64,000 bases of DNA, from positions 1-64,000 of the forward strand of contig NZ_JADNOH010000070.1 of assembly GCF_015557435.1 (NCBI RefSeq), read 5' to 3'. The notes below the pieces were generated by a model, which saw nothing but the letters and a program-made list of their open reading frames with translations, was not told where the DNA came from and made no database searches. Made by a program: the position numbers and the translations under genes. Below, piece by piece: positions 40,643 through 43,876 of this stretch (its first letter is position 1; the number at the start of each line of letters is the position of its first letter). Source of the stretch: Collinsella aerofaciens (lineage in GTDB: Bacteria; Actinomycetota; Coriobacteriia; Coriobacteriales; Coriobacteriaceae).

Positions 40643-42424
40643 ATGCTGCTTACGCAAACGACAACGCCCGAGGACGTCAAGGCTCTCGATCGCGCCGAGC
40701 TTCCGCTGCTCTGCGGCGAGATCCGCCACGCCATCCTCGAAAGCTCCGCCGCCGTCGGCGGGCACGTTGCCCCCAACCTGGGCGTCGTTGAGCTTACGGT
40801 CGCGCTCCATCGCGTGTTTAACTCCCCCACCGACAAAATTGTCTTTGACGTGTCACACCAGACCTATGCCCACAAGGCGCTGACTGGGCGCGCGTACACT
40901 TATATCGACCCGGCACGCTACGGCGAGGTCTCTGGCTTTGCCAATCCCGACGAGTCCGAGCACGACCTGTTCGCCATGGGCCATACCTCCACGTCGGTGA
41001 GCCTGGGCTGCGGCCTTGCCCACGCGCGCGACCTGGCGGGCGACAGCTACAACGTCATTACCATCATTGGCGACGGTTCGCTTTCGGGCGGTCTGGCGTT
41101 TGAGGGCTTTAACAATGCCGCCGATCTCGACAGCAACCTGATCATCATCGTCAATGACAATGACCAGTCCATTGCCGAGAACCATGGCGGCCTGTATCGC
41201 AATCTGGCCGAGCTGCGCGCCAGCAACGGCACCTGTGAGCGCAACGTTTTCCGCGCGATGGGGCTCGACTACCGCTATCTGGACGCCGGTAACGATGTGT
41301 TGGCCCTAGTCGACGTGCTGCAGGAACTGGGCGATATCGATCATCCCATCGTGCTGCACGTCTCCACCGCGAAGGGCAAGGGCTTTGAGCCGGCCCAGAG
41401 CGACCCCGAGCGCTGGCATCATGTAGGTCCGTTTGACATGGCGACTGGGCGCAAGCTCTGCCCGGGCCATCCGAGCGAGCCTGCGCCGCGCACCTATGCC
41501 GACATTACGGGCGAGGCCCTGAGCGCTGCCATAGAGAGCGATCCGCAGGTTGTGGGCATCACGGCCGCAACGCCCTACATCATGGGCTTTACGCCCGAGC
41601 TTCGCGCCGCGGCAGGCAAGCAGTTTGTTGACGTGGGCATTGCCGAGGAGCACGCCGTGACCTTTGCCACCGCGCTTGCGCGCTCGGGCGCCAAGCCAGT
41701 CTTTGGTGTGTACGGCACGTTTTTGCAGCGCGCCTACGACGAGCTGTGGCACGACCTGTGCCTCAACGATGCCCCGGCGACGATCCTAGTGTTTGGCGCA
41801 TCAATCTTTGGCACTACGTCCGAGACGCACCTTTCGTTCTTTGATATTTCCATGCTGGGCGGTCTTCCCAACATGCACTACTTGGCACCAGCCTGCATGG
41901 AGGAATATCTGTCCATGCTGAGCTGGTCGCTCGACCACCGCGAGCATCCTGTGGCGATTCGCGTGCCCGGCATTGGCCTGGTAAGCCGCCCCGACTTGGC
42001 GCCTGCCGAGGACGCCGATTACGGTGTCGCGCGCTACAACGTGGTGCGCCAAGGCCGCGACGTGGCCGTGCTCGCGCTCGGCGATTTCTTTGAGCTGGGC
42101 GAGCGTGTGGCAAACCGCTTGGCAGCCGAATACGGTATCGAGGCCACGCTCGTCAACCCTCGCTTTGCAACCGAGCTTGACCGCGAGTTCCTCGACAGCC
42201 TTGCCGCCAAGCATCGCGTTGTCGTCACCCTCGAGGACGGCATCTTGGACGGCGGTTGGGGCGAACGCGTCGCGTGCTACTTGGCCTGCACGCCCGTGCG
42301 CACGCGCACCTTCGGCATCGCCAAGGGCTTCCCCGACCGCTACGACCCCAACGAGCTGCTCGCTCAGAACGGCATGACGGTCGAGAACATGGCCGCCGAG
42401 GCCGTAAGGCTACTCAACGAGTAA
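40643..42424 (+). CDS. dxs: 1-deoxy-D-xylulose-5-phosphate synthase
   Basis: This 593-residue thiamine-diphosphate enzyme joins pyruvate and glyceraldehyde 3-phosphate in the first step of the MEP isoprenoid pathway. The TPP-binding motif is GDGSLSGGLAFEGFNNA with a closing NDND (residues 140-170). The transketolase-type glutamate lies in VDVGIAEEHAVTFATAL near residue 335. It is shorter than canonical DXS (about 620-640), as in the compact form found in many gut Firmicutes and Actinobacteria. The ribosome site (GGAG, 13 nt away) is weak. Confidence 0.92.
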   Translation: MLLTQTTTPEDVKALDRAELPLLCGEIRHAILESSAAVGGHVAPNLGVVELTVALHRVFNSPTDKIVFDVSHQTYAHKALTGRAYTYIDPARYGEVSGFANPDESEHDLFAMGHTSTSVSLGCGLAHARDLAGDSYNVITIIGDGSLSGGLAFEGFNNAADLDSNLIIIVNDNDQSIAENHGGLYRNLAELRASNGTCERNVFRAMGLDYRYLDAGNDVLALVDVLQELGDIDHPIVLHVSTAKGKGFEPAQSDPERWHHVGPFDMATGRKLCPGHPSEPAPRTYADITGEALSAAIESDPQVVGITAATPYIMGFTPELRAAAGKQFVDVGIAEEHAVTFATALARSGAKPVFGVYGTFLQRAYDELWHDLCLNDAPATILVFGASIFGTTSETHLSFFDISMLGGLPNMHYLAPACMEEYLSMLSWSLDHREHPVAIRVPGIGLVSRPDLAPAEDADYGVARYNVVRQGRDVAVLALGDFFELGERVANRLAAEYGIEATLVNPRFATELDREFLDSLAAKHRVVVTLEDGILDGGWGERVACYLACTPVRTRTFGIAKGFPDRYDPNELLAQNGMTVENMAAEAVRLLNE

Positions 42425-42464
42425 AAAACCTCCGCAAGGGAAGCACCCATGCGGAGGTTTTTAT
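42424..42464. terminator. Terminator of dxs
   Basis: ACCTCCGCA and TGCGGAGGT are flanked by A- and T-runs, so the hairpin begins right at the dxs stop codon. It is symmetric and could work in both directions. Confidence 0.9.
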
Positions 42465-42480
42465 TTTCGCGACGCGATTA

Positions 42481-42697
42481 TCTCAATCTGTAACATCTAT
42501 GGCCCGAATTCCCGTCTAACTGTTACAGATCTAGAAAAGACGTCTTAGTCCCTGACCTTTGTCTCAATCTGTAACAGATAGAGACCTTCTGGCCGTCCAG
42601 ATGTTACAGATTGAGACATTCGAATTCCCCTAAAGAGAAAATCTCGATCTGTAACAGGTAGAACCCATTTCCTCGTCTAACTGTTACAGATTGAGAC
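42481..42697. repeat. Array of three tandem inverted-repeat units
   Basis: Units at 42481-42535, 42561-42617 and 42642-42697 each have a left arm TCTCAATCTGTAACA (TCTCGATCTGTAACA in the third), a spacer of about 25 nt and a right arm TGTTACAGATTGAGA. The right arm of unit 1 diverges after TGTTACAGAT. The start-to-start period is 80-81 bp. The middle unit has near-perfect 16-bp arms. The array sits between the dxs terminator and the promoter of the amino acid transporter, in a 456-bp gene-free gap. Confidence 0.9.
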
Positions 42698-42729
42698 AAA
42701 GCAGCGAGACAGGCCACCACATCTGCAAG

Positions 42730-42751
42730 AACCACCACAAAGGTGCCTGTC
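42730..42751. repeat. 22-bp direct repeat, copy B
   Basis: This stretch is identical to 13951-13972 (starting AACCACCACAAAGG). Here it is followed by CCTTTTTGG, the middle of the palindromic repeat family seen at 9011-9055. Confidence 0.75.
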
Positions 42752-42807
42752 CCTTTTTGGTAGGAAGAATTACCCATAAGGTAAGTATGTTTCTGAGTTA
42801 TTTCGTG

Positions 42808-42837
42808 TTGACCCATTTGAGCGGGATAGGGTATAAC
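42808..42837 (+). promoter_or_regulatory. Promoter of the amino acid transporter operon
   Basis: TTGACC and TATAAC are separated by 18 nt, 44 bp before the binding-protein start codon. Both hexamers match the housekeeping consensus at 5 of 6 positions. Confidence 0.75.
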
Positions 42838-42880: not shown

Positions 42881-43876
42881 ATGAGCAAAAACCTCTCCCA
42901 GCAGGTCGTTCTCGACCGCCGCGGCTTCGTTGCCGCCACCTTCGCAACCGTCGCCGGCCTTGGTCTTGCCGGCTGCTCCGACACCAGCGCCGAGGCCGAC
43001 AAGGGTTCCGCCGCCGGCTCCTCCAAGAGCTCCGAAGATACCGAGGCTTCCACCATACTCGATGCCAAGGCATTCGACAAACTCGTCGACAACGGCCCCA
43101 AGGCCGATGACGACGCCATCGCCGCCAGCACCTGGGCCACGGCCGTCAAGGACGCCGGTGTCTTTAAGATCGGTGGCGTTCAGACCTCCACACTTTTCTC
43201 CCTCCTCAACGAGAAAGACGGTCAGACCCGCGGCTTCGACGCCGGTATCGCACAGCTCCTGTCCAACTACATTCTGGGCGAGAACAAGGTCGAGATCACC
43301 CAGGTGACCTCGGACACGCGCGAGTCCGTCCTGCAGAACGGCCAGGTCGACGCTGTCTTTGCCACCTACACCATCACTGACGAGCGCAAGAAGCTCGTCT
43401 CCTTCGCCGGTCCCTACTACTACACCCAGCAGGCTATCCTGGTGCTCGCCGACAACGACGACATCAAGAGCGTCGACGACCTTGCCGACAAGAACGTCGC
43501 CGTCCAGTCCGGCTCCAACGGCCCCGCCATCCTGGAGGAGTTCGCTCCCAAGGCCAGCCAGCAGGAGTTCAAGACCGACGAGGAGGCCCGTCAGGCACTT
43601 CAGCAGGGTCGCGTTGACGCCTATGTCATCGATAACAACATGCAGCAGAGCGCCCTGGTCCGCGAACCCGGTAAGTACAAGATCGCCGGCAAGCCCTTCG
43701 GCAGCAAAGAGCCCTACGGTATCGGCCTGCCGCTCGATTCCGACGGCGTCGCCTTTGTCAACGACTTCCTTAAGAAGATCGAGGACGACGGCACCTGGAC
43801 CGAGCTGTGGCAGATCTGCATCGGCGACCGTACGGGCGACACCAATGTTCCCGAGCTGCCCGAGATCGGCGCCTAG
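42881..43876 (+). CDS. Amino acid ABC transporter substrate-binding lipoprotein
   Basis: This 331-residue binding protein has a twin-arginine lipoprotein signal (RR at 13-14, LAGC with C32). It then has a Ser/Ala/Asp linker and a family-3 periplasmic-type binding domain (residues 85-325): RGFDAGIAQLLSNYILG, GQVDAVFATYTITDERKKLVSFAGPYY, and DLADKNVAVQSGSNGP. This group binds polar amino acids such as glutamate or glutamine. It is the first gene of the operon, with GAAAGGTG 8 nt upstream. It is anchored outside the membrane after processing by Lgt (encoded at 13987). Confidence 0.92.
   Translation: MSKNLSQQVVLDRRGFVAATFATVAGLGLAGCSDTSAEADKGSAAGSSKSSEDTEASTILDAKAFDKLVDNGPKADDDAIAASTWATAVKDAGVFKIGGVQTSTLFSLLNEKDGQTRGFDAGIAQLLSNYILGENKVEITQVTSDTRESVLQNGQVDAVFATYTITDERKKLVSFAGPYYYTQQAILVLADNDDIKSVDDLADKNVAVQSGSNGPAILEEFAPKASQQEFKTDEEARQALQQGRVDAYVIDNNMQQSALVREPGKYKIAGKPFGSKEPYGIGLPLDSDGVAFVNDFLKKIEDDGTWTELWQICIGDRTGDTNVPELPEIGA

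Follow-up and report, generated by a model that had tools for sequence, protein, structure and literature searches.

An array of paired inverted repeats

What are three evenly spaced pairs of inverted arms in an intergenic region of Collinsella aerofaciens, and do they belong to anything larger than the locus that holds them? The window analysed here, a stretch of 64,000 nucleotides (contig NZ_JADNOH010000070.1), contains three units at 42479-42537, 42560-42618 and 42640-42698, with start-to-start distances of 81 and 80 bp. Each unit is 59 bp long and consists of two inverted 17-nt arms flanking a 25-nt spacer. The first has its arms at 42479-42495 and 42521-42537, with a degenerate outer right arm, and its spacer at 42496-42520; a linker of 22 bp (42538-42559) follows. 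The second carries perfect 17-nt arms at 42560-42576 and 42602-42618 around a spacer at 42577-42601, and a 21-bp linker (42619-42639) leads to the third, with arms at 42640-42656 and 42682-42698 and a spacer at 42657-42681. The initial annotation described three hairpin units with common arms, different 25-nt spacers and a period of 80 bp. The units are real, their spacers differ and inverted arms occur in all three, but the exact arms that were quoted are found in unit 2 only; unit 1 has tgttacagatctaga as its right arm, and unit 3 has tctcgatctgtaaca as its left. The core ATCTGTAACA, with at most one mismatch, has seven copies in the window, all within the array, against a mean of 1.48 and a maximum of 5 in 100 shuffles.

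The array lies between two genes of the forward strand. The upstream gene (40643-42424) has a counterpart in C. aerofaciens NZ_OY725717.1 annotated as 1-deoxy-D-xylulose-5-phosphate synthase, and a terminator-like inverted repeat on the same strand (42424-42462) stands at its 3' end, outside the array. The counterpart of the downstream gene (42881-43876) in the same record is annotated as a glutamate ABC transporter substrate-binding protein; its ATG is 183 bp from the end of the array. Between them are a second, unrelated palindromic repeat of the ACCACCACAAAGGTGCC type (42730-42764) and a promoter-like TTGACC-N18-TATAAC on the forward strand (42808-42837), which is recognizable by eye and is not reported by a strict promoter scanner. 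The placement of the array upstream of a transporter promoter, remarked on earlier, is incidental to the family described below, whose arrays adjoin genes in every orientation.

A dispersed family of one Collinsella clade

The pattern ATCTGTAACA-N23-27-TGTTACAGAT has 42 exact matches in this genome, and the reversed control pattern has none. With relaxed arms, the stretches surrounding these matches hold 60 units in 23 intergenic arrays: three arrays of one unit, eight of two, nine of three, two of four and one of six. A whole-genome scan with a 15-nt arm and at most one mismatch finds 113 sites, all of them inside those stretches and in paired units; none is an isolated arm or belongs to a longer element bounded by such arms. 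Both neighbouring genes are called for 19 arrays; the pair is divergent in 7 cases, co-directional in 8 and convergent in 4. The neighbours are diverse: the 20 proteins scanned with Pfam include pseudouridine synthase, DeoR regulators, release factor 3, phosphomethylpyrimidine kinase, a heavy-metal type ATPase, and FHA and kinase proteins, with no common function and no transposase, recombinase or cas gene among them. A rough skew analysis of genome G002 (20 samples, 160 kb) gives no convincing pattern of clustering at the origin or terminus.

Outside this genome, the family is confined to one clade. The exact pattern occurs in 23 of 43 genomes of the genus, 22 of them with 17-44 copies and one with a single copy. 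Across the order, CTGTAACA-N25-TGTTACAG matches 25 of 395 genomes, with a control of zero throughout; 22 of these belong to a single genus and contain 19-51 copies, and the remaining three (two of the genus, one of another family) have one copy each. A search of a named genome collection gives 90 stretches, and among the matches listed 80 of 80 are Collinsella. Since arrays are absent or nearly so in 21 of the 43 genomes searched in the genus, their function, if any, is dispensable at the genus level.

The same architecture built on different arms is not found in 400 kb of G037, in a search for such arrays in array-poor genomes; the positive control recovers 17 of 20 arrays in 231 kb of the family's own loci, and a further 113 kb of loci yields one unrelated match (L330), from the array-rich G004. 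An origin in phages or plasmids is likewise rejected: the pattern has no match in phage records, its single plasmid match is a 900-kb Collinsella record in which it occurs at 28 places, and among the 42 viral contigs that match the pattern loosely, L234 alone truly belongs to the family.

Geometry, base composition and pairing

The geometry of the units is held within narrow limits. A search over distances of 10 to 60 gives 344 distinct units whose inner cores match exactly; the inner arms are 25 bp apart in 339, 26 in three and 24 in two. Successive units are spaced by 80 (191 cases), 81 (112) or 79 bp (8) despite differing linkers; these counts include orthologues and are not phylogenetically independent. 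The half-site consensus is about WW-YRTCTCRATCTGTAACA-NN-TAG, two copies of which face each other across 25 bp with a central A-tract. The spacers follow a grammar of their own, in which NNTAG is followed by a G/C-rich stretch, a centre of AAA or TTT, and then the mirror. The base is A or T without preference between the two at the spacer centre (frequencies of 0.95-0.99) as well as the outer edge (0.85-0.98), and the bases just outside the arms are A or T at 0.98 and 0.85. Such indifference between A and T at the centre and the outer edge suggests reading through the minor groove. Arm positions 6-7 read CG, CA or TG across all units, a CpG-decay pattern, and this variation might reflect methylation.

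Single-stranded DNA of the three window units folds better than shuffled sequences (z of -3.3, -8.3 and -7.1), but a selected hairpin is unsupported by the comparison of units, and the word 'hairpin' is misleading. At arm position 7 purines and pyrimidines combine freely in this genome: A-C 19, G-T 16, A-T 12, G-C 12. Over 108 spacer clusters, complementarity at arm positions 1, 2, 6 and 7 is 0.35, 0.47, 0.73 and 0.61 against expectations of 0.43, 0.50, 0.71 and 0.50 (z of -1.6, -0.6, 0.5 and 2.4). These values use a symmetric expectation; earlier z values for complementarity were affected by a fixed orientation rule. Position 7 alone is raised, with 66 of 108 clusters complementary, a weak excess. 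The halves of the spacer are less complementary than expected by chance, most of all at the A-tract and the first spacer base. As the variable arm positions pair near chance and the spacer halves are anti-complementary, the arms appear to be mainly independent half-sites, which would fit a dimeric protein on double-stranded DNA. Avoidance of longer palindromes may also stem from the instability of palindromes.

Conservation and turnover

At the window locus, divergence among 17 arrays is 0.017-0.024 in the arm cores, 0.063 in the flanks, 0.118 in the linkers and 0.22 in the spacers. These are 17 of 21 orthologous loci, the other four having no array in the stretch compared; G002 retains its array farther upstream, and L150 looks like a true loss. 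A set of 14 loci, each with at least four distinct arrays, gives 0.021 for the arm core and 0.165 for the linker, computed over pairs of equal unit number that are not independent of each other. Part of the arm conservation could reflect concerted evolution by gene conversion instead of selection.

None of the 14 loci has a constant number of units, and spacers are exchanged. Among 1087 orthologous unit pairs, 198 differ at more than 10 of the 25 spacer positions, and 106 of these 198 are swaps of the whole spacer with almost identical adjoining linkers. At the window locus, the spacer of unit 3 exists in two unrelated alleles across relatives, with unchanged arms and linker around them; in two genomes unit 1 carries an alternative allele, and L154 and L158 have each lost one unit. 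Spacers also resemble each other across loci. For 69 of 322 spacers the nearest distance is at most four, compared with 2 of the 402 listed draws of an independent-column control; the orthologues of one locus are not independent in this count, and duplicated neighbouring loci explain some of the similarity.

Two further loci have both filled and empty alleles. An array of 2-4 units is present in 12 of 21 genomes at locus A and in 11 of 21 at locus B, and the empty alleles that make up the remainder show no tree signal. At locus A, empty alleles have one copy of the second palindrome and filled alleles have two, which fits deletion between the palindrome copies; at locus B, flanks of about 14 and 28 bp accompany the array. 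Neither of these loci shows a clean target-site duplication, and the empty alleles can equally be deletions. At the window locus, a gene-sized stretch separates the array position from the transporter gene in L147, L148 and L162; L150 appears to have lost both this stretch and the array.

Candidate sites for a dimeric DNA-binding protein

The initial annotation offered three ideas for the units: stacked binding sites, successive insertions of one palindromic element, and recombination sites. The first is the best supported, by the inverted pairs of half-sites, the fixed 25-bp and 80/81-bp geometry and the stronger conservation of arm cores than of flanks. We give about an even chance to the reading that the arrays are phased double-stranded sites for a putative dimeric DNA-binding protein, reshuffled by recombination and dispersed as an intergenic family in one Collinsella clade. 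The half-sites would be read as double-stranded DNA by a sequence-specific dimer. The fixed phase would allow adjacent dimers to touch, or the array to bend into a regular nucleoprotein structure, and units would be added, lost and exchanged through recombination between identical arms. There is a rather small chance that the family amounts to a clade-specific nucleoprotein lattice of the chromosome, in which a putative dimeric protein, possibly the one designated P0001 below, occupies half-sites phased at 25 and 80/81 bp in some 20 to 25 places per chromosome and bends or bridges the DNA, and in which the identical arms drive a continual exchange of units and spacers between loci.

A non-autonomous mobile element is an unlikely alternative. 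Here the 59-bp doublet would replicate in the manner of REPINs or MITEs through a trans-acting transposase (RAYT or another) and grow later in tandem. Conserved ends around a variable middle, the intergenic and dispersed distribution, the patchy presence at loci A and B and the cross-locus similarity of spacers above the independent-column control would all suit it, and genes for RAYT-type Y1 transposases are present in the genus. The arrays resemble the REPINs of Pseudomonas fluorescens SBW25 in being intergenic and dispersed, with inverted conserved ends, a variable middle and some tandem clusters; REPINs are there described as keeping their hairpin through compensatory changes, with common singlets and with RAYT genes beside clusters (PMC3116915). 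The Collinsella family resembles REPINs in outline but fails three tested REPIN features: the arms show no clear covariation, none of the 113 arms (at most one mismatch) is a singlet, and no RAYT gene is nearby. Its middle is moreover exactly 25 bp, and arrays are the rule. REPINs have a tag, GTAG or CGTC, at one end; here most outer arm ends read TGTC, CGTC or AATC, with no fixed tag. The link to RAYTs proves unsupported, for 37 of 43 genomes, array-free ones included, have such genes whether or not they carry arrays, and seven RAYT surroundings in three genomes contain no arm core. An autonomous element with the same ends, as would be expected for a MITE, does not appear either, all 113 arms lying in 59-bp units. 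The idea of successive insertions is borne out in part, at the level of units, which are subject to gain, loss and exchange and some of whose spacers resemble those at other loci; neither an insertion footprint nor a linked transposase was found.

Sites of a site-specific recombinase, at which the 25-bp spacer or whole units would be swapped as cassettes, have a low probability. The whole-spacer swaps between nearly unchanged linkers and the losses of whole units are what such exchange would produce, but ectopic gene conversion through identical arms explains the swapped spacers with no need for a dedicated enzyme. The 20 neighbouring proteins scanned include no recombinase, visual inspection of the orthologous alignments showed no spacer in reversed orientation, and to our knowledge inverted arms around a 25-bp interior are not a form taken by recombinase cores. 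This third idea of the annotation has no direct evidence.

It is improbable that the arrays are transcribed to display 25-nt loops, as a small RNA or as RNA processing sites. The strong folding of single strands agrees with transcribed hairpins, and the avoidance of pairing between spacer halves would keep the loop open. Clear covariation of the arms is missing, which weakens any hairpin or RNA reading: mismatches are as frequent as pairs at the variable arm positions in this genome. The arrays lie between genes of every orientation, the window array is 3' of a terminator-like repeat, and no Rfam family reaches the cut-off, the best matches being far below the gathering score.

A specific protein, P0001, may be tied to the arrays. 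Its gene (G000:C89:30513-31631, equivalent to L050:12011-13132) encodes a putative nuclease-like protein, judged by eye from the motifs GELDGKGKY and RVDYFW, which we take to recall a PD-(D/E)XK nuclease. Of the 22 array-rich genomes, 19 have an orthologue of at least 84% identity, and array-free genomes have none. Arrays bracket the gene at all 17 loci where both flanks are readable and likewise at 5 of 5 named loci; none of 11 paralogues (45% identity or less) has adjacent arrays. That P0001 is the cognate protein and the arrays its sites is nevertheless very improbable. Genomes G001, G004 and G005 lack an orthologue and yet have 28-36 units, which makes P0001 at most a lead; shared descent reduces the 17 loci to one event; the protein matches no family, and its structure model, built with five close sequences only, is useless (mean pLDDT 36.8). 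Other single genes are bracketed by arrays as well, namely those for a 228-aa protein without a family (L045:6511-7197) and a 4Fe-4S protein (L044:209-1159). In G023 the P0001 gene has an internal stop.

A plain local duplication without function, suggested by the tandem arrangement and earlier tied to arms that occur nowhere else and a unit number that never varies, has next to no chance, as arms of fixed geometry recur at 23 arrays here and in 22 array-rich genomes and unit number does vary.

Relation to other repeat systems

Short conserved intergenic sites at regular spacing and in alternating orientation also characterize BIMEs, which consist of regularly spaced REPs and bind several proteins (PMC2817692). 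No sequence relation to BIMEs was found for the Collinsella arrays, which differ by their 25-bp interior with its own grammar and by the 80/81-bp lattice. The STAR elements of Staphylococcus are likewise short, conserved, intergenic and variable between strains, but they are direct repeats and not inverted pairs (PMC3532100). CRISPR arrays similarly alternate conserved repeats with intervening sequence that varies but keeps a constant length; the Collinsella spacers differ in having a base grammar, in occurring in similar form at several chromosomal loci, and in the absence of cas genes among the 20 neighbours. Of two spacer cores compared with viral contigs, one gave a single match and the other none. 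With a shared grammar and recurrence at several loci, the spacers do not fit acquisition from foreign DNA. A literature search of incomplete coverage finds no paper on the Collinsella array family, and the RepRanger text does not include Collinsella. Within that literature the family is previously undescribed, and it is most like operator or BIME-type sites.

The arrays present a geometry held tighter than most of the sequence, in a common human gut bacterium. A 59-bp probe offers a handle for finding the predicted binding protein, unit number and spacer alleles can serve as markers for strain typing, and the arrays naturally preserve traces of short tracts exchanged from locus to locus. Should the sites organize the chromosome or mark points of exchange, they would represent a new type of bacterial repeat system.

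The second palindromic repeat

The palindrome present at 42730-42764 of the window recurs at many loci, in the forms ACCACCACAAAGGTGCC..CCTGTCCC..GGTGGT and TTTTGGTAGG. It is found within 200 bp of 9 of the 23 arrays, compared with 3.8% of random 400-bp stretches, a random set that includes coding DNA. Its arm sequence alternates between two forms among relatives at the window locus. In the right flank of the L178 array, the palindrome is broken after AAGGTG by unrelated sequence that looks like an insertion element.
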